Assembly (NCBI RefSeq): GCF_002097535.1
Contig: NZ_CP020772.1
Coordinates: 682,001 to 746,000, forward strand
DNA: 64,000 nt
Reading direction: 5' to 3'
From: Halobacillus mangrovi
GTDB taxonomy: Bacteria; Bacillota; Bacilli; Bacillales; Halobacillaceae
The notes under the pieces are model-generated. The model saw only the letters and a list, made by a program, of their open reading frames with translations, was not told the DNA's origin and searched no databases. Below, piece after piece: positions 5,303 to 61,084 of this stretch. The first letter of the stretch is position 1. Each line of letters starts with the position of its first letter. Position numbers and translations under genes: made by a program.

Positions 5303-6487
5303 ATGGATGAAAAAAAGATGCGCTTGGAGACTTCGATGATCCATAATGAGAGCGATGCTCATGAACAGGGAAGTTTGACAACGCCTATTTATCAAACATC
5401 AACGTTTTCATTTCCATCTGCCGCTGTAGGGGAGAAACGCTTTGCGGGAGAAGATGATGGTTATGTGTACACACGATTAGGAAATCCTACGGTCAAAGCT
5501 TTAGAGGAAAGAATAGCAACACTTGAAGGAGGAGAGAGGGGGCTCGCCTTCGCATCCGGAATGGCTGCCGTGTCTGCTGTATTGATTTCCCTGACGAAAG
5601 CTCATGATCATATTTTATGCTCGAATGGTTTGTATGGCTGTACATTTGGTCTGTTAAAAATGCTAGAAGAAAAATATAGCATTACTCATGACTTCAGTTT
5701 TATGGAGGATGAGGAGGAACTTCGAAGTCGGCTGACGAAAAACACAGCTTGTATTTTTATTGAAACTCCTATTAACCCTACAATGAAAATGGTAGATTTA
5801 TCGATGGTCGCACGGGTCGCAAAAGAATATGAGATTCCGGTTGTGGTTGATAATACTTTTTGTACTCCATACTTACAACGACCGCTTGAATTAGGGTGTG
5901 ATGTGGTCATTCACAGTGCAACCAAATATATCGGGGGCCATGGAGATGTGATCGCAGGACTCGCTGTCGGAAAACAGGAGTTCATGAATTCCGTAGCTAT
6001 GAATGCTCAGAAAGATATTGGAGGAGTCTTGTCCCCATTTGATGCCTGGCTTTTAATACGCGGGTTGAAGACTTTGCACGTCCGTTTAGATCGTCACAGC
6101 ACTAATGCTGAAGTAATCGCAACCCGACTAAAACAGCATGCTTTCATTCAGAATGTATATTACCCAGGGATGGAAGATCATCCACAAAAACCAATTCAAG
6201 AAAAGCAAATGAAAACGGGAGGCGGCGTCCTCGCTTTCGAAATAAATGGATCAAAATCAGATGCTCAATTCTTCATGGACCAGTTGAAATTAATTAAAAT
6301 AGCTGTGAGTCTTGGTGATGCGGAAACACTGATTCAGCATCCTGCCTCCATGACCCACGCTGTAGTACCTGAAGAAGAGAGAAAGAAGATGGGTATCAGA
6401 GATACGTTGATTCGTCTTTCTGTCGGTCTCGAATCTGTTGAAGATATATGGGACGATCTTACTCAAGCCTTAGAAAAATGTAAGTAA
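5303..6487 (+). CDS. megL: Methionine gamma-lyase (PLP-dependent)
   Basis: A 394-residue member of the Cys/Met-metabolism PLP family. The PLP lysine is K208 in SATKYIGGHGDV; YTRLGNPT near 56 is the phosphate-contact motif, and SGMAAVSA near 85 is typical. NGLYGCTFGL places a tyrosine at 111 and a cysteine at 113. That cysteine corresponds to the active-site Cys of methionine gamma-lyases (YGCTF), which favours this activity over cystathionine gamma-synthase or beta-lyase. The expected reaction splits methionine to methanethiol, ammonia and 2-oxobutyrate in the cytoplasm. The gene stands alone between two terminators, behind a perfect cre site, so it is likely repressed when a preferred sugar is present. 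A cystathionine gamma-lyase assignment remains possible. Confidence 0.8.
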   Translation: MDEKKMRLETSMIHNESDAHEQGSLTTPIYQTSTFSFPSAAVGEKRFAGEDDGYVYTRLGNPTVKALEERIATLEGGERGLAFASGMAAVSAVLISLTKAHDHILCSNGLYGCTFGLLKMLEEKYSITHDFSFMEDEEELRSRLTKNTACIFIETPINPTMKMVDLSMVARVAKEYEIPVVVDNTFCTPYLQRPLELGCDVVIHSATKYIGGHGDVIAGLAVGKQEFMNSVAMNAQKDIGGVLSPFDAWLLIRGLKTLHVRLDRHSTNAEVIATRLKQHAFIQNVYYPGMEDHPQKPIQEKQMKTGGGVLAFEINGSKSDAQFFMDQLKLIKIAVSLGDAETLIQHPASMTHAVVPEEERKKMGIRDTLIRLSVGLESVEDIWDDLTQALEKCK

Positions 6488-6495
6488 ATCGGAAA

Positions 6496-6524
6496 AGTCA
6501 GGATACCCTCCTGGCTTTTTATTT
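6496..6524 (+). terminator. Terminator after the methionine gamma-lyase gene
   Basis: AGTCAGGA and TCCTGGCT pair (one G-T) around a 5-base loop, followed by TTTTTATTTA. Confidence 0.75.
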
Positions 6525-6637
6525 AGGACAATAATCCATTCTGCGTTTATTCATTCCTCTCAAGGGAAAAGTACTACAAGTTTGTTTTATAATGATGAAC
6601 GTAAGAAGCACACTAACATGTTTGAAAGGGTGTTTGT

Positions 6638-10462: not shown

Positions 10463-11905
10463 GTGAATATTATTCCATATATCTTAACGACAATCTTAAT
10501 CTTGAACGTTTTACTAGCATTGGCAATTATCTTTTTAGAACGCCGGGATGCAAGTGCCACATGGGCATGGCTCATGGTCTTGCTTTTCTTGCCGATTGTA
10601 GGGTTCTTGTTATACTTAATTTTTGGAAGACGATTAAGCCATAAAGAAATATTTACTTGGGATAAGAAAAGCCGGTTAGGCTTACTGACGGCTGTTCAGG
10701 AACAATTAAAGGCCATTAAAGATAACACGCTGGAAGTGCAGCGAAAAGAAATTGTATCTTATGAAGATTTAATCTATATGCATTTAAAAAACAATGACGC
10801 CCTTTTTTCTCAAAATAATGATGTAGAAGTTTTTACAGATGGACAGAAAAAGTTTCACGCCCTTCTTGAAGATATTGAGAAAGCAGAAGACCATATTCAT
10901 TTGCTTTATTACATCATAAGGGATGACAACCTTGGACAAAGGTTAGCAGAAGCCTTGATCAAGAAAGCGAAAGAGAAGGTAGATGTCAAAATTCTCTATG
11001 ACGACATGGGATCGCGTCTACTTAGCAGAAAATACGTGAAGAGGATAAGAGCAGCTGGAGGGCAAGTGGAGTCATTCTTTCCTTCCTTAGTTCCTAAAGT
11101 GAACTTGAAAATCAATTATCGTAATCATAGAAAGCTGGTTATCATAGATGGAGAAATCGGGTATATCGGCGGTTTCAATATTGGGGATGAGTATTTAGGA
11201 TTCAGTAAAAGGTTTGGTTACTGGAGAGATACCCACCTCAAGGTAGAAGGCGATGCTGTTCACAACATGCAAACACGCTTCATCCTCGATTGGAATCAGG
11301 CTTCCAGAAGAGACATCGTCTATGAAGATCGGTTTTACCAGGCGAAGCCCAAAGGCGACGTAGGAATGCAGATCGTCTCAAGTGGTCCTGACTCGGAATG
11401 GGAACAAATTAAACATGGCTATATTAAGATGATCATGTCCGCGAAAAAATATGTGTATATCCAAACCCCTTACTTTATACCTGATGACAGTTTGTTAGAT
11501 GCGTTAAGAATAGCTGTGTTATCAGGGGTTGATGTAAGGTTGATGATCCCCAATAAACCGGATCACCCATTCGTCTACTGGGCGACTTATTCGAATATAG
11601 GTGACTTGTTAATGGCAGGTGCCAGAATCTATGTTTATCAAAGAGGCTTTTTACATGCAAAAACCATCGTCGTAGATGGAAACATCGCCTCAGTTGGAAC
11701 TGCGAACATCGATGTTAGAAGCTTTCGTCTCAATTTTGAAGTGAATGCTTTTTTGTATCATTCAGATGTAGCGAGGTTATTGGCTGACCGTTTCAATGAA
11801 GACTTAAAAGAATCTACTGAACTGACCTACAAGCTTTACCAGTCAAGGTCCAAGTGGATTCGCTTTAAAGAAGCAATAGCCCGGTTGTTGTCTCCTATTT
11901 TATAA
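10463..11905 (+). CDS. cls: Cardiolipin synthase (PLD family)
   Basis: A 480-residue membrane enzyme. Two N-terminal hydrophobic helices (about 4-23 and 33-53) precede two phospholipase D domains with HKD motifs: HRKLVIIDGEIGYIGGFN near 225 and HAKTIVVDGNIASVGTANID near 400. It condenses two phosphatidylglycerol molecules to cardiolipin and glycerol at the cytoplasmic membrane. The start is a GTG behind AAAGGTAGGTG. Length and domain order match B. subtilis ClsA. Cardiolipin content commonly rises in halophilic Bacillaceae at high salt, which fits the presumed lifestyle but is not shown here. Confidence 0.92.
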   Translation: MNIIPYILTTILILNVLLALAIIFLERRDASATWAWLMVLLFLPIVGFLLYLIFGRRLSHKEIFTWDKKSRLGLLTAVQEQLKAIKDNTLEVQRKEIVSYEDLIYMHLKNNDALFSQNNDVEVFTDGQKKFHALLEDIEKAEDHIHLLYYIIRDDNLGQRLAEALIKKAKEKVDVKILYDDMGSRLLSRKYVKRIRAAGGQVESFFPSLVPKVNLKINYRNHRKLVIIDGEIGYIGGFNIGDEYLGFSKRFGYWRDTHLKVEGDAVHNMQTRFILDWNQASRRDIVYEDRFYQAKPKGDVGMQIVSSGPDSEWEQIKHGYIKMIMSAKKYVYIQTPYFIPDDSLLDALRIAVLSGVDVRLMIPNKPDHPFVYWATYSNIGDLLMAGARIYVYQRGFLHAKTIVVDGNIASVGTANIDVRSFRLNFEVNAFLYHSDVARLLADRFNEDLKESTELTYKLYQSRSKWIRFKEAIARLLSPIL

Positions 11906-12028
11906 GCTTGTAAATCTTCATGCTGATTATTTGATAATATACTGGGAACATTCCTATATTATTTAAGCCTCCTTCTCCTGAAAACTTGAATTCGAGATAT
12001 TCTCTGCGCCGTTGCGTCATAAGCGTAA

Positions 12029-12152
12029 GGTTGGCAGGAAAACAACTCGCTTTCCTGCGGGGGAACTGGCAAGCCTCCTCAGTCGCTTCACTCCTTGTGG
12101 GGTCTCGCCTACCTCCTTCTCCCGCGGGAGTCTCGCCGTTTTCCATCCAACC
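12029..12152. repeat. Palindromic core 1 of E1 (subtype B)
   Basis: Outer arms GGTTGGCAGGAAAAC and GTTTTCCATCCAACC pair at 13 of 15 positions. On the minus strand the inner helix is GGCGAG with CTTGCC, which includes a G-T pair, and the apical hairpin is AGT-GAAGCG-ACT. Confidence 0.7.
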
Positions 12153-12265
12153 CATCTATAGTGTAGGAACGGCCCCATTTAACAGGTGTAAGGTGGCTCT
12201 GATTTCCTAGATTACAGATAGATTTTCGGTACCAATAACGTTTCCGTTACTCCCACCAGTCGTAA

Positions 12266-12385
12266 GGAGGTCGGAGAAATCGCGAGACTCCTGTGGGATG
12301 AACATGATAGGTGAGACCCCGGAGAGCTTTAGCTCGAGGAGGCTCAGCACATGCCCACGGAAAGCGAGTGATTTCTCCGACCTCC
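12266..12385. repeat. Palindromic core 2 of E1 (subtype A)
   Basis: Perfect 15-bp outer arms GGAGGTCGGAGAAAT and ATTTCTCCGACCTCC enclose inner arms GGTGAG / CTCAGC and the apical hairpin GAGC-TTTA-GCTC. Only two of 120 bases differ from the inverted copy at 18458-18577. Confidence 0.8.
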
Positions 12386-12494
12386 AAATTCTACTTAGGG
12401 CAACGGAAAAAGCTCACAGTACCTCGAAATCAAGTCTTCCACTATCCTGCTAATTATTTGAAAAAATCATTATATTCAATTATTAGTTATAAGT

Positions 12495-12541
12495 AAACAA
12501 AAAGAAAAGGTGTCTCGGGATTTTCCCGGGACGCCTTTTCT
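12495..12541 (-). terminator. Terminator downstream of htrB
   Basis: On the minus strand, AGAAAAGGCGTCCCGGGA pairs with TCCCGAGACACCTTTTCT and is followed by TTTTGTTT. It lies 125 bases past the htrB stop. Confidence 0.75.
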
Positions 12542-12573
12542 GATGAGAGAGGTTGTTTGGTTTTTGGTAAGGG

Positions 12574-12603
12574 TTCGCACAGAAGGGCTGCTTTCTGTGC
12601 GAA
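12574..12603. other. Perfect hairpin in the htrB 3' region
   Basis: TTCGCACAGAA and TTCTGTGCGAA form a perfect 11-bp stem with an 8-base loop. A weaker stem (TCAAGC/GCTTGA) follows at about 12613-12636. Neither has a T-tract, so they are not obvious terminators; together with the distal terminator they form a structured 3' region of unknown role. Confidence 0.5.
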
Positions 12604-12664
12604 GGGAGAGCATCAAGCACTTTACCAGGGCGCTTGAGCTTTTCTAAGTTCTCTGCTTTCTATA

Positions 12665-13813
12665 TTATTGGGAGGAAAGCTTGAGTTTTGTTTTCATCTG
12701 TTCGCCGTCGCGGTAAACCGTTAGCTCGACGGTATCTCCAACTTTTGCTTCATTATAGAGATACTCACGCAAGCTCATGAGTGATTCGACTTTGTTCCCG
12801 TCAATTTCAGTGATGACATCATACTGACTGAGATCTGCTTTTTGGGCTGCTGATCCTTGCTCTACCCCTTGTATGAGAACCCCTTGGGTTACTTCAGCGG
12901 GCAGATTCAATTCTCTTTGTAAAACAGATCCTGGAATTTGACTGACATCCTGAAGGGACACACCCATATAAGGGCGTTCCACTTGGCCATTGGTTTCAAG
13001 ATCTTCGATGACTGGTTTTGCTACATTCATAGGGATCGAGAAACCGATTCCTTCGACTTCTTCCTTGGCAATTTTCATAGAATTGATTCCTATGACTTCA
13101 CCTTTAAGGTTGATCAGTGCACCACCGCTATTCCCCGGATTGATGGCGGCATCCGTTTGAATAACCTGGGTTTGCCAGTCTGGTTGTTGGTCGCCGTTCA
13201 TATCTCTTGGGATACTACGGTCAAGACCACTGACAATGCCTTTGGTGGCTGATCCTGCGAATTCCATGCCGAGTGGGTTACCGATCGCTATGGCTGTTTG
13301 ACCGACCTCTACGTCATCGGCGTTTGCAAATTCAGCAACCTTTTCTACATGTTCGCTATCTATTTGTAAAACGGCAAGGTCTGTTAAAGGGTCACTGCCT
13401 TTCAATTCGGCTTTTACTTTAGTACCATCACTCAAGATCACTTCTACTTCAGAAGAGTTTGCAACAACATGATGGTTCGTTACAACAAAAGCTTGATCGC
13501 CGTCTTTTTTATAAATGACCCCAGATCCTGTACCGGCTTTTTGGGTACCCTGGCGAGTCTCCTGAATGTTACTTACACCTACTACGGCCTTAGAAGTCTC
13601 ATCTATGGCCTGTGTAACAGCATTCGGATTATCGTTTAGGTTCAATTCGTCAGCTTGGGCTGTTGGTTCGTTCGTATTAATGCTGACGGATATTCCCTTC
13701 CATTGGAAAACAGTCGTTACAAGAAATACAGCAATAATTGCGCCTAAGACTCCAAAAGCTAACCCGGAACGTTTATAGCTACGCTTAGTTTGGCGGTTAT
13801 CTTCGTTAAACAT
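12665..13813 (-). CDS. htrB: HtrA/DegP-type membrane-anchored serine protease
   Basis: A 382-residue protein with an N-terminal membrane anchor (about 17-37), a trypsin-like domain and one C-terminal PDZ domain. The triad is visible: His in VVTNHHVVA (~115), Asp in DLAVLQID (~150) and Ser in NPGNSGGALIN (~228). It degrades or refolds misfolded proteins outside the membrane. It is divergent from a two-component system, the same arrangement as htrB (yvtA) with cssRS in B. subtilis, where CssRS induces htrA and htrB under secretion or heat stress. The start codon is uncertain: ATG at 13813 lies 11 bases from GGGGG, while an in-frame TTG at 13822 lies closer. Confidence 0.85.
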   Translation of the reverse strand: MFNEDNRQTKRSYKRSGLAFGVLGAIIAVFLVTTVFQWKGISVSINTNEPTAQADELNLNDNPNAVTQAIDETSKAVVGVSNIQETRQGTQKAGTGSGVIYKKDGDQAFVVTNHHVVANSSEVEVILSDGTKVKAELKGSDPLTDLAVLQIDSEHVEKVAEFANADDVEVGQTAIAIGNPLGMEFAGSATKGIVSGLDRSIPRDMNGDQQPDWQTQVIQTDAAINPGNSGGALINLKGEVIGINSMKIAKEEVEGIGFSIPMNVAKPVIEDLETNGQVERPYMGVSLQDVSQIPGSVLQRELNLPAEVTQGVLIQGVEQGSAAQKADLSQYDVITEIDGNKVESLMSLREYLYNEAKVGDTVELTVYRDGEQMKTKLKLSSQ

Positions 13814-18369: not shown

Positions 18370-18400
18370 CATGTGCATGGATTATTCAGCTATATATGGA

Positions 18401-18745
18401 TAGTGGAAGACTTGATTTAGTGGTACTGGCAGCTTTCCGTTGCCCTAAGTAGAATTTGGAGGTCGGAGAAATCACTCGCTTTCCGTGGGCATGTGCTGAG
18501 CCTCCTCGAGCTAAAGCTCTCCGGGGTCTCACCTATCATGTTCATCCCACAGGAGTCTCGCAATTTCTCCGACCCCCTTACGGTTATTGGGAGTAACGGA
18601 CACGTTATTGGTGCCAGAAATCTATCTGTAATTTAGGAAATTAGAGTCTCCTTACTCCTATTAAACGGGGCCGTTCATTACAATCCTATTCCTTATCACG
18701 TAACTGCCCTAGAATATCGAAACTGAGCCTTCAGGATAAGGGGGT
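18401..18745. repeat. Intergenic repeat element E2
   Basis: A non-coding block between alsT and the ABC-F gene, starting TAGTGGAAGACTTGATTT and ending TTCAGGATAAGGGGG. Its first ~290 bases are the reverse complement of 12170-12446 with few differences. Its core is listed separately. Confidence 0.78.
18458..18577. repeat. Palindromic core of E2 (subtype A, inverted relative to core 2)
   Basis: Arms GGAGGTCGGAGAAAT and ATTTCTCCGACCCCC pair at 14 of 15 positions. Compared with the reverse complement of 12266-12385 I count two differences in 120 bases. Confidence 0.8.
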
Positions 18746-20844: not shown

Positions 20845-22095
20845 ATGAAATTTCCAAGTCAAGAGAAGCTTGATAAATACGCTGATTTAGCATTGAAGAC
20901 GGGAGTGAACTTACAAAAAGGTCAGAAGTTGATGATCAACTCCACAATCGAAGGTGCTGAATTCACACGTGTGATTGCTAAGAGAGCTTATGAGATGGGA
21001 GCGAAGGATGTACATATTAACTGGGGAGATGACGCTTTAACCCGGATGAAATATGAATACGTCGATCAGGATACCCTTTCAGAAGTACCTGAGTGGCAGC
21101 GCCAGCAGTACACGTATTTTGCCGAGGAAGGGGCAGCAATTCTATCCGTTAGATCAACGGATCCGGATCTTCTAAAAGGGATTGATGCTGGTAAAGTTGC
21201 AGCAGCGACCAAAGCGAGATCAGAAGCGATGTCTAAGTTCCGTCAGTACACGATGAACGACCGAATTCAATGGTCGATTGTCAGTATTCCAATCCCTGCT
21301 TGGGCACAGAAGATTTTCCCGAATGAAAACGGGGAAGATGCTGTAGAAAAACTATGGGATCAAATTTTCAGTATCGTCCGTGTTGATCGTGAGGATCCTA
21401 TTGCTGCCTGGGAAGAGCACAATAAAACATTGATCAAAGCTCGTGAGTATTTGAATAAAAAGCAGTACAGCAAGCTGATTTATAAAGCTCCAGGAACAGA
21501 TTTAGAAGTGGATCTTCCGAAAGGCCACATTTGGAAAGGCGGACCTGCCAAAACGGAAAAAGAAGGTATTCAGTTCAACCCGAACATGCCAACAGAAGAG
21601 GTCTTTACAGCTCCTCATAAGTACGGAGTGAACGGAAAAGTGTCCAGCACCAAACCGTTAAATTATGGCGGTAATGTGATTGATAACTTTACTCTGACAT
21701 TTGAAGAAGGGAAAGTCGTTGACTTCACTGCTGAGGAAGGGGAGGAGACGATGAAACACTTGCTTGAAACCGATGAAGGCTCTCGTCGTCTTGGAGAACT
21801 TGCCCTTGTACCACATGAGTCTCCAATTTCTCAGTCGGGATTAATTTTTTATAACACGCTTTATGACGAGAATGCTTCTTGTCACTTGGCACTAGGAAAA
21901 GCTTATCCGAATAACATGACAGGCGGTTCGGATATGAATGAAGAAGAACTTGATAAAAACGGAATCAACGACAGCTTATCACACGTTGATTTTATGATGG
22001 GCTCTGCTGAGCTTGATATTGATGGAGTGTTGGAGGATGGAACAGAAGAACCAGTGATGCGTAAGGGAAGCTGGGCCATCTCTTTTGACGAATAA
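20845..22095 (+). CDS. ampS: M29-family metallo-aminopeptidase
   Basis: A 416-residue cytoplasmic peptidase of the AmpS/aminopeptidase T family. The C-terminal half carries the metal-binding segments typical of M29: an EEGEETMKHLLETDEG region, LGELALVPHESPIS, ENASCHLALGKAYP and HVDFMMGS. These enzymes remove N-terminal residues from peptides using Co2+ or Zn2+. The start at 20845 is preceded by GGGAGG; an upstream in-frame ATG at 20806 has no binding site. It is monocistronic and closed by a bidirectional terminator shared with asnB. Confidence 0.87.
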   Translation: MKFPSQEKLDKYADLALKTGVNLQKGQKLMINSTIEGAEFTRVIAKRAYEMGAKDVHINWGDDALTRMKYEYVDQDTLSEVPEWQRQQYTYFAEEGAAILSVRSTDPDLLKGIDAGKVAAATKARSEAMSKFRQYTMNDRIQWSIVSIPIPAWAQKIFPNENGEDAVEKLWDQIFSIVRVDREDPIAAWEEHNKTLIKAREYLNKKQYSKLIYKAPGTDLEVDLPKGHIWKGGPAKTEKEGIQFNPNMPTEEVFTAPHKYGVNGKVSSTKPLNYGGNVIDNFTLTFEEGKVVDFTAEEGEETMKHLLETDEGSRRLGELALVPHESPISQSGLIFYNTLYDENASCHLALGKAYPNNMTGGSDMNEEELDKNGINDSLSHVDFMMGSAELDIDGVLEDGTEEPVMRKGSWAISFDE

Positions 22096-27690: not shown

Positions 27691-27740
27691 ATGTAGTAAA
27701 GATTGCCACGGTTAATAACTACATAGAATTTTCTGCAATT

Positions 27741-28051
27741 TAGTAATGGAAGACTCGATTTAAGCTGCTTTTATTAAGAGGAACTAATAAAGCCGCTCTC
27801 TAAATACTGAAACTCGATTGAGTAGGTTCGTTAAGCTATTGAAAGCTGGGGTGGATGGAAAATGACGAGACCTCCCGTGGGAGAAGGACTTAGGCAAGAC
27901 CCCCCAGTGAGCGAAGCGAACGAGGACTTGCCAGTTCCTCCACAGGAAAGCGAGTTATTTTCCATCCACCCCTCACACTATTAAAGGTAAGAACCCAAGA
28001 TATATCCAACTAGATAATGATCTCGAATTCAAGTCCTCAGGATAAGGAGGC
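27741..28051. repeat. Intergenic repeat element E3
   Basis: A non-coding block between the zinc-ribbon and BCCT genes, from TAGTAATGGAAGACTCGATTT to CCTCAGGATAAGGAGGC. These ends match those of E1, E2 and E4. The space between the left end and the core differs from E2. No open frame of note is present. Confidence 0.72.
27848..27972. repeat. Palindromic core of E3 (subtype B)
   Basis: Perfect 16-bp arms GGGGTGGATGGAAAAT and ATTTTCCATCCACCCC. The inner helix GGCAAG (27893-27898) pairs perfectly with CTTGCC (27927-27932). The arms differ in sequence from those at 12266 but remain complementary. Confidence 0.78.
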
Positions 28052-28223
28052 ATATTTCGTAAGCAGGTAGTTGCTATATCGGTTATTTATTAACACAAAA
28101 AATACAAAATTAAAGTAAAAAATATGAATGGTGGGTAAACTTTACACTTTACAGCATAATAAGAGCAGTGTTATGGTCTCTAAATGTGCCAAAAACACAT
28201 GATTACATTTAAAGGAGTTATTT

Positions 28224-35766: not shown

Positions 35767-35872
35767 TAAAAAACATAGTCCAATCCCAGATAAACTCCAG
35801 CCTTCAAGAATAGGAAGCTCTTTAATGATTTCAGATTATGATCTCTAAAAGTAATTAAGAAACTAACGATAT

Positions 35873-35894
35873 CCATAATATGGATGACCTGAGG
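35873..35894. repeat. Short sequence shared with the hairpin at 60917
   Basis: CCATAATATGGATGACCTGAGG matches the loop and right arm of the 27-bp hairpin at 60917-60976 with one difference. Here the left arm is reduced to ATCCA, so only a short stem can form. Confidence 0.5.
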
Positions 35895-35927
35895 GCCGAG
35901 TTTTGTGCAAATTTTCTTACAATTTTT

Positions 35928-42932: not shown

Positions 42933-42954
42933 ATGGTAGATGAGCGCAACATGT

Positions 42955-43070
42955 CCCATTTTTATCATTACATCAGCGGCCTCAGCCTCCTTGCGGAAAA
43001 GGCACCGCTGCGGGGACTTCGAACTCGTGTTGTACCCGCAGGAGTGACGGCATTCTATCTTCGTTGATGA
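42955..43070. repeat. Possible diverged intergenic repeat
   Basis: A GC-rich stretch (CTCAGCCTCCTTGCGG, CCGCTGCGGGG, CCCGCAGGAGTGACGGC) resembles the conserved inner part of the E1-E4 cores in reverse orientation, but the paired outer arms are not evident. It may be a decayed copy or another repeat type. No gene is seen between 42933 and 43191. Confidence 0.35.
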
Positions 43071-43191
43071 AAACGAAGCGTGTAAAAGAAGGAATTAGAT
43101 CATTCCAGCGTAAGCGGTCATTCAGAAAAAGGTTATTTCTAAATTTTTCAGTTCGTCTTTAGATTGGATACTAATTCCCAGCCTCTTTTGA

Positions 43192-52800: not shown

Positions 52801-53172
52801 AGGGTAGTGGAAGGTTTGATTTTGAGATTTTGTGGGAGTCTAGGTCGTTGGCTTTCTCAACTCCCCTTGCCATAAGGTTCTCGAAATCCCCACTACTAGA
52901 AAAAGGTCTACCAACTGTAAGGAAACCGCAGGCAATTCTTTTTTCACAAAAATACTATACCCAACATGCTTCATTCCGAATAAGAGAGTATCTTTATATC
53001 GTATGGTGGATGGAAAAATGGCAAGACTCCTGTGGGATAAACATGATAGGTGAGACCCCGGAAGACGAAGTCTGAGGAGGCTCAGCACATGCCCGCGGAA
53101 AGTGAGTCATTTTTCCCATCCACCATCACTCATACAAAAATATCGAAGCCGACTCTTCAGGAATAGGAGGCG
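52801..53172. repeat. Intergenic repeat element E4
   Basis: A non-coding block starting AGGGTAGTGGAAGGTTTGATTTT and ending ACTCTTCAGGAATAGGAGGC, matching the ends of E1-E3. It holds about 170 bases without similarity to the others between the left end and the core. Confidence 0.68.
53003..53126. repeat. Palindromic core of E4 (subtype A interior)
   Basis: Arms ATGGTGGATGGAAAAATG and CATTTTTCCCATCCACCAT pair with one bulge. The apical hairpin is AGAC-GAA-GTCT, different from the GAGC-TTTA-GCTC of E1/E2 but again self-complementary. Confidence 0.75.
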
Positions 53173-53298
53173 TTAGTCAAAGGAACAGGGGTCTCTATTT
53201 TAAGTGTGTCGTCAGAAAAATATTTTAAGACTTTTAAAAGTTTCCTTGTCAGAATTAAAAGGGTAAAATGAAGAAAAAGGGAGAGGGAGGGGAAGACG

Positions 53299-57002: not shown

Positions 57003-57139
57003 TTAATTAATTACATATTAGCTGATTTTCTTTGATTTGACAATACGTTTGATATGAGAGTGGGAGTTTACTGTTAAATCATGAAAATTGCGCTTTTAAC
57101 AGATTTCTTTTATTATTAGAGGTAGTAAAATTTTATATT

Positions 57140-57287
57140 TTCCTTCGGGGTCGGGTGAAAGTCCCAGCCGGCGGTAATGAACAGTTTGTTCCGAGCCCGC
57201 GACGGGGAGTGAGTGTGAAGCACCATTCCCCCTGATTTGGTGCATATTCCAAAGCCGACAGTGAAAGTCTGGATGGGAGAAGGATGT
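57140..57287 (+). ncRNA. FMN riboswitch (RFN element)
   Basis: The classic RFN blocks occur in order: TTCGGGGTCGGGTGAAAG, CCCAGCCGGCGGTAATG, AGCCCGCGAC, TGATTTGGTGC, AAAGCCGACAGTGAAAGTCTGGATGGGAGAAGGAT. FMN binding reduces expression of the ribDEAH operon. Two hairpins follow before ribD. Confidence 0.95.
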
Positions 57288-57296
57288 GGAGAACGT

Positions 57297-60916: not shown

Positions 60917-60976
60917 GAAAAACCTTGCACCTCAGGTCATCCATAATCTGGATGACCTGAGGTGCAAGGTTTTTCC
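60917..60976. terminator. Second, 27-bp perfect hairpin after ribH
   Basis: Left arm 60917-60943 and right arm 60949-60975 are perfectly complementary over 27 bp with a 5-base TAATC loop. The arms begin with A-tracts and end with T-tracts, so it can terminate in both directions. Its length far exceeds usual terminators. Confidence 0.75.
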
Positions 60977-61084
60977 ATTACCCGCCATTTACCTATTCAA
61001 AAGTGAGGGGAAGGGGGAGATTGGGCTACAATAGTTTATGTCCTTTGGTAAAAAGGAATGATGGAGATAGAGGAAGGTGATGAT

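Follow-up and report, generated by a model that had tools for sequence, protein, structure and literature searches.

A MITE-like repeat family of Bacillales with a palindromic body that is apparently selected to fold

Five palindromic cores of about 120 bp lie in a 64-kb window of the Halobacillus mangrovi genome (the whole stretch of 64,000 nucleotides analyzed here), and we find that such cores are the bodies of elements of a MITE family. The fold of the core is apparently under selection within the body of this mobile family. Judging from sequence comparisons, it is likely that we are dealing with a MITE-like family of the Bacillales whose active copies are selected for a folded + strand, probably as RNA.

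Palindromic cores and their fold

The initial annotation, which was made from the letters of the window, described five cores whose arms change together between copies. We confirmed all five at their positions by direct reading and with a covariance model that represents 80 cores, those of the window among them, and was run on the 64-kb window. The model returned exactly five strong matches, which are the five cores (Table 1). Core 12029 ranked next, on its opposite strand (E 0.0025), followed by a doubtful match at 42953-43071(-) (E 0.0033) and a further weak one at 21767-21846(-) (E 0.09). At 42953-43071(-), ACTCCTGCGGG, CCCCGCAG and AAGGAGGCTGAGG are present in the order in which they stand in a core, and this stretch may be a decayed core or a member of a related palindrome family. 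An inverted-repeat search of the window recovered three of the five cores as intra-core repeats.

The outer arms vary between cores and each is complementary to its own partner, as had been annotated, except that the right arm of core 53003 has one extra C and the arms of core 12029 contain two mismatches. Complementarity is perfect between arms GGAGGTCGGAGAAAT and ATTTCTCCGACCTCC of core 12266 and along GGGGTGGATGGAAAAT in core 27848. All three versions of the inner helix are found as described: GGCAAG/CTTGCC at 27893, GGCGAG/CTTGCC in core 12029 when read on the - strand, and GGTGAG/CTCAGC, which forms five of six pairs, in cores 12266, 18458 and 53003. The same holds for the three apical hairpins (GAGC-TTTA-GCTC, AGAC-GAA-GTCT and AGT-GAAGCG-ACT), which we read directly.

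Table 1. Elements, cores and their parts in the window
Feature	Position	Strand	Detail
Complete two-core element, about 500 bp	11950..12470	-	Paralogue alignments; sits between convergent genes
Outer end, B half	11950..12000	-	Outward reading TCGAATTCAAGTTTTCAGGAGAAGGAGGCTT; aligned with other copies' ends
Extra outer stem, half B	12006..12176	-	GCGCCGTT at 12006 opposite AACGGCCCC at 12168, imperfect
Core, subtype B (GGCGAG/CTTGCC; AGT-GAAGCG-ACT apex)	12029..12151	-	Model match 12031-12157, 99.2 bits; subtype rule
Spacer between two divergent cores	12152..12265	unstranded	Between core B and core A
Outer stem, half A	12240..12409	+	GTTTCCGTT at 12240 with AACGGAAA at 12402
Core, subtype A (core of the finding)	12266..12385	+	Model match 12261-12383, 114.2 bits
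Intra-core inverted repeat	12266-12297/12354-12385		78% identity
Outer end, A half	12418..12468	+	TCGAAATCAAGTCTTCCACTATCCTGCTAATTATTTGAAAAA; aligned with other copies' ends
Element without B core	18398..18745	-	A half, then terminal sequence of the other type (about 18708-18745)
Core, subtype A	18458..18577	-	Model match 18460-18582, 114.8 bits
Intra-core inverted repeat	18458-18489/18546-18577		72% identity
Element, one recognized core and both terminal sequences	27740..28052	+	Direct reading
Core, subtype B	27848..27972	+	Model match 27844-27969, 76.1 bits
Intra-core inverted repeat	27848-27885/27935-27972		76% identity
Half element: A-like core (53003-53126) and outer end	52986..53178	+	Stretch covered by paralogues
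Core of the half element	53000-53121	+	Model match, 106 bits

Cores 12029(-) and 12266(+) are back-to-back halves of one element of ~500 bp and have opposite orientations; along the + strand the order at 11950..12470 is core B (-), spacer, core A (+). With window positions 11500-13100 as query, six near-full-length paralogues from the host genome align from query positions 465-468 to 953-969, and a seventh aligns in two pieces. These alignments, in which the ends of the paralogues align with each other, give the element an extent of 501 bases (11965-12465), to which a few conserved bases at the termini are added. Read by eye, the outer stems that many halves carry appear to be additional arms that change together: several other B copies pair GGGGCCGTT with AACGGCCCC, and the pair GTTTCCGTT/AACGGAAAC recurs in subtype A and C copies. 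The window also holds a different repeat pair, at 35871-35909 and 60917-60977, which is 82% alike over 39 bases; at 60917-60975 two 27-bp arms repeat each other perfectly in inverted orientation across a 5-base gap.

The fold of each core is an extended, imperfect hairpin whose internal loops are conserved in sequence. GAGACTCC and GGAAAGCGAG, which face each other, are conserved and non-complementary, as is GGAGCGGAA, which stands on both arms in many genera. In the 80-core alignment, 92.9% of the pairs in a 24-pair structure are standard, and 302 cells are two-sided, compared with 100 after shuffling and 47-73 with the partners slid. A joint-change-per-branch test, for which we used a tree of 213 cores with many genera represented, identified 8 Bonferroni-significant pairs among 7503 column pairs; all eight are nested in the hairpin, in its outer, middle, inner and apical helices, and they are 69-99% canonical. 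Along this tree, 29 pairs account for 215 compensatory events, against 6-13 with slid partners and, with permuted partners, a mean of 15 and a maximum of 74; since the structure was derived from the alignment on which the events were counted, it is favored over its slid versions in this comparison. The joint-change test replaced our first covariation statistic, a G-test with APC whose null redistributed the changes on the tree, after that statistic was known to give no significant pair (null maximum 199). We think, without having proved it, that the first null overloaded long deep branches with changes. The proposal that the compensatory changes reflect selection on a fold thus gains support from the larger alignments, with significant covarying pairs under the second statistic and none under the first.

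A mobile family in many Bacilli

The host genome, a single contig of 4,142,697 bases, holds at least 150 cores. Taken as the best 150 of 652 covariance-model candidates, they group into 94 loci, of which 53 have the orientation '-+', one '-++' and one '--', 39 are single and none is '+-'. The first 60 loci contain 89 cores, 82 of them typed as A, B or C, with 3 untypable and 4 fragments. Where both halves of a two-core element could be typed (34 cases), we found 20 A/B, 12 B/C and 2 A/C pairs; that none is of a single type is no test, because the copies derive from few masters. Across 54 two-core loci in this genome, spacer length ranges from 30 to 508 bp. If the contig start is taken as the origin, the 39 single cores, counted by hand, divide 15 to 24 between the two replication sides. 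At 116 loci of other genomes, neighboring cores within 800 bp are arranged '-+' in 30 cases and '--' in 3, indicating that the divergent arrangement is general.

Cores occur in all 22 genomes of the genus that were searched, the host among them, at 25 to at least 150 per genome. In a sample drawn evenly across the class Bacilli, to which stricter filters and at most 14 scored places per genome applied, they are present at E <= 1e-6 in 60 of the 249 genomes, counting the host, and in 22 of 104 genera. A pattern scan of named genomes yielded at least 116 matching stretches; all 116 that were listed belong to genera that we take to be Bacillales, including Priestia, Peribacillus, Rossellomorea, Oceanobacillus, Sporosarcina and Planococcus. 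Core matches are found in 15 of 72,556 plasmid records, and phages gave no match to the P. simplex core. Plasmids of Bacillus subtilis (L254) and Priestia megaterium (L255) carry the core on the downstream side of gnd, within a zwf-gnd-hypothetical-glucose-6-phosphate isomerase (zwf-gnd-pgi) block; two Paenibacillus plasmids and another Priestia plasmid have equal match scores. On a third plasmid examined the core overlaps a short annotated 'hypothetical protein', and the three core-bearing plasmids offered no functional hint.

Signs of mobility come from Peribacillus, in which the core is flanked by inverted ends that start with GGCT. With at most one mismatch, the end pattern has 198 matches in P. 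simplex and 220 in a second genome, and the pattern read backwards has none in either genome scanned. From the listed matches we took 40 P. simplex regions, which gave 39 full-length copies of 173-231 bp; the element is typically ~219 bp and the core is its body. A perfect 8-bp target duplication borders 31 of the 39 copies, and 3 more match at seven of eight positions. Mean identity between the flanking octamers, whose bases are 93% A+T, is 7.38, compared with 3.90 (maximum 4.79) for shuffled flanks. The GGCT-form end reads GGCTSTTTTCGYAWASWTTGTTG and is accompanied by 8-bp duplications; terminal inverted repeats of the form GGCTSTTTTC..TTGTTG or GGCTSTGTT are shared by P. simplex and several other genera. 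Because these elements combine GGCT inverted ends with perfect duplications at 31 of 39 copies, they constitute a mobile MITE family. They are without a transposase gene, short (~219 bp in P. simplex, ~500 bp in the host) and present in many copies, as MITEs are. In three P. simplex copies (L271, L285 and L295), 38-46 bases around the hairpin tip are deleted and the 8-bp duplications are intact; two of the three seem to share breakpoints.

At the other loci, an automatic end scan recognized GGCT ends for 14 of 164 cores and none for the remaining 150. Six of these 14 have perfect 8-bp direct repeats outside the ends, and the mean identity for the 14 is 6.07 of 8, compared with 3.35 in shuffled flanks (maximum 4.79 in 2000 shuffles). 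We also scanned 1.30 Mb of loci for pairs of GGCT ends with at least seven of eight duplicated bases, and found 36 elements shorter than 400 bp and four larger ones of 425-588 bp, whose longest open frames run to 61-94 codons. Two elements, L089 (458 bp, duplication 8/8) and L174 (526 bp, duplication 7/8), have GGCT-type ends around a + core together with a - core that scores lower (3.7 bits in L089, 13.3 in L174), an arrangement that would place the two-core form in the GGCT-ended family. One of the four larger elements, L114 (425 bp, 8/8), contains another repeat beside two pieces of the core that point the same way.

The ends of the Halobacillus elements are inverted as well, imperfect and different from the GGCT ends, and among 20 elements scanned no target-duplication offset stands out. 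Insertion sites are mostly not common to different species. The half element at 53003 has no core at 19 of 20 orthologous loci and a weak match at one; among the 17 relatives for which pieces of both flanking genes are listed, the distance between these pieces is 98-256 bases in 16 and 494 in the remaining one (G010). At the 12-kb site, where 2-3.4 kb was searched in 21 relatives, five have the core pair, four a single or partial core and 12 none.

Other repeats were met beside the cores. Three B cores of the host genome (L008, L011 and L021; G000:C1 near 2515200, 2738090 and 1018480) are interrupted at GGAAAG^CGAG by a hairpin-rich repeat, TGTTCAAATGCGGAA...CTAGA, which looks like a second family that inserts site-specifically into the core. 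A third repeat, ..ACGTCCTGTGGCCAAC..GTCG or a near version of it, takes the place of the left core arm in L076 (about 6120-6190), L101 (about 6500-6575) and L106 (about 540-600), and the junction is at nearly the same point in all three.

Inverted repeats that start with GGC and AT-rich 8-bp target duplications are traits of the ISL3 family. The ISL3 transposase model PF01610 matched one of eight genomes, that of P. deserti, in three copies; it has no match in the host genome. The ends of the P. deserti ISL3 element, GGCTCTATAATATTTGTTG, are similar and not identical to the MITE ends. We regard ISL3 as a candidate mobilizer only, since the ends differ and PF01610 is found in one of eight genomes; neither the PF01610 search of the eight genomes nor the 1.30-Mb end-pair scan found a transposase with matching ends. 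A partner gene beside the cores was also sought, by comparing 977 ORFs near 145 loci all against all. No cluster spans more than 20 loci; the largest, with 20, reads as ABC ATPases, and the others listed read as household genes by their first residues.

Strand asymmetry and the nature of the folded molecule

In a double-stranded palindrome, G-U and A-C mismatches are not expected to differ in frequency. Along the lineages, however, Watson-Crick pairs on the + strand changed to G-U 126 times and to A-C 61 times (p about 2e-6 if events are independent), compared with 140:117 in the slid control. The G-U excess suggests that one strand folds. Rare variants within the Halobacillus subtypes, which are mostly of post-insertion origin, divide 77:77 between the two kinds of change, which argues against a mutational origin of the bias in Halobacillus. 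The rare variants of P. simplex are skewed like the lineage events (24:11, p 0.04); this weakens the rare-variant control and makes a mutational share possible. Taken together, the counts suggest selection on master copies to fold one strand, with drift in the inserted copies.

The initial annotation had proposed that the fold is possibly one of RNA. The asymmetry on the + strand bears out a single folded strand, as RNA requires, and single-stranded DNA fits it too. The folded strand is probably RNA, in our judgment, because the inverted ends with their 8-bp duplications speak for transposition by double-strand cut-and-paste, for which no hairpin is needed, and because the + strand tends to run co-directionally with the flanking genes. 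This tendency is weak: between tandem genes the + strand runs along both neighbors at 38 loci and against them at 22, and in P. simplex at 17 and 7, with two loci in both sets. A fold of single-stranded DNA, recognized in transposition or replication as are IS200/IS605 ends, REPs and integron attC sites, would also produce an excess of G-T over A-C on one strand, and the paired divergent hairpins resemble REP pairs. Cut-and-paste hallmarks are not those of Y1 enzymes, however, and the co-direction with genes and the lack, among the 977 neighboring ORFs of 145 loci, of a cluster that recurs in more than 20 loci also speak against this explanation, which we consider unlikely. As to attC itself, the core ends GTTGATT/AATCAAC stand in the order opposite to that of attC sites, and we rejected this assignment.

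Compensatory changes can also arise at the DNA level in any long inverted repeat, when replication switches templates and copies changes from arm to arm. Such correction of quasipalindromes could by itself yield the compensatory changes in the core arms with no selection for a fold, but the internal loops have stayed conserved and non-complementary in many genera. Moreover, template switching should be strand-symmetric, in contrast to the 126:61 ratio of lineage events beside 77:77 for Halobacillus rare variants; of all the readings we find this one the least probable.

Alternatively, the hairpin might protect or terminate messages at their 3' ends and, having spread by transposition, be kept for its use to the host. 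Divergent gaps, which hold promoters, are indeed avoided: they contain 1 of 42 intergenic elements of the host and 5 of 85 cores elsewhere, compared with 96 of 550 gaps in a background drawn from the window and from those 116 loci in other genomes (6 of 48 host elements, which overlap a short predicted ORF, and 14 other cores that overlap ORFs stand outside these counts). In P. simplex, gene 3' ends are a median of 78 bases away (n 34) and 5' ends 207 (n 30). Both features are expected of any harmless insertion and do not prove a host role. Against such a role, sites mostly differ between species and the Halobacillus rare variants are without strand bias. No T run follows the arms of the window cores on direct reading, and at 11900-12600 terminator-like sites occur at the shuffled rate (one, weak and inside a core, versus 0.8); we rejected an intrinsic terminator, which takes a GC stem and a T run. 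Promoter-like sites in the same interval are also near the shuffled rate (2 versus 0.9). We think it improbable that usefulness to the host maintains the fold.

The reading we favor is that of a non-autonomous transposable element whose body would be one core or two back-to-back cores. Its active, or master, copies would be selected for folding of the + strand, and the putative RNA may help the element persist, whether it binds some factor in trans or renders read-through transcripts harmless. A transposase, perhaps of the ISL3 type, would act in trans, and inserted copies would then decay, as with SINE RNAs. A bolder version, which we hold to be possible at a rather low probability, makes the core an independent selfish RNA module, equivalent in bacteria to a SINE RNA. 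Its + transcript would fold and act in trans, perhaps as a binding partner of a transposase, ribonuclease or ribosome-associated factor; the module would have ridden transposons with unrelated ends, and back-to-back pairs would express two divergent copies from the spacer.

Relation to known repeats and RNAs

Such repeats are abundant in the intergenic DNA of many Bacillales, and a search of the open-access literature returned no name for this family. Rfam 15 gave no match at the gathering threshold over the cores, in the window or at 17 loci of other genera. Its only matches lie off the cores: one FMN, one SAM and one purine riboswitch, with the FMN element (RF00050, 98 bits) at window positions 57137-57288. 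Sub-threshold matches to MIR1428, tsr24, greA and CsrC lie far under the threshold and were taken as chance. The initial annotation held that a match to an already described terminator or MITE family would count against its reading; the cores do turn out to be the body of a MITE-like element, and the Rfam and literature searches matched them to no described family. Bacillaceae-1 (RF01690), listed in PMC2864571, had no match to the cores in the Rfam searches.

Recent P. simplex copies and older Halobacillus copies together make a clean system for asking why a gene-less transposon keeps a folded strand across bacterial families, and the ends and structure supply annotators with a masking model. 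One close likeness is to ISL3-derived MITEs, which share inverted repeats starting with GGC, 8-bp AT-rich duplications, the lack of a long ORF and many copies. The present family differs in that we found no ISL3 element with the same ends in the eight genomes searched and in that its body is a fold conserved across genera. REP pairs (BIME/REPIN, with RAYT transposases) are likewise two inverted hairpins, intergenic and present in many copies. REPs are short hairpins of about 25 nt, however, whereas these cores are ~120 nt, contain several helices and come with inverted ends and 8-bp duplications, which speaks against a REPIN with a RAYT. In the Bacillus cereus group, bcr1 reportedly has mobile-element traits and is group-specific, going by the title of Okstad 2004. 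As tabulated in PMC2267715, bcr1 is intergenic and 147-167 bp long; compared by description only, it resembles our family in location and mobile-element traits and differs in being group-specific. That source also describes Bhal-1 of Bacillus halodurans as an intergenic stem-loop repeat of 74 bp with 36 copies, 32 of them full, and its passages on this repeat, unlike what we find here, give no ends, mobility or cross-genus structure (PMC2267715); going by this description, Bhal-1 may be a piece of the present family.

Eukaryotic SINE RNAs would offer a parallel of another sort, in that their fold is kept in active copies and inserted copies decay; here, in contrast, the target duplications are of the DNA type and retrotransposition is not suggested. 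Set beside these systems, the family is ordinary in kind, a MITE, and what appears unusual is its strand-selected structure, held in common across genera, and its divergent two-core form.
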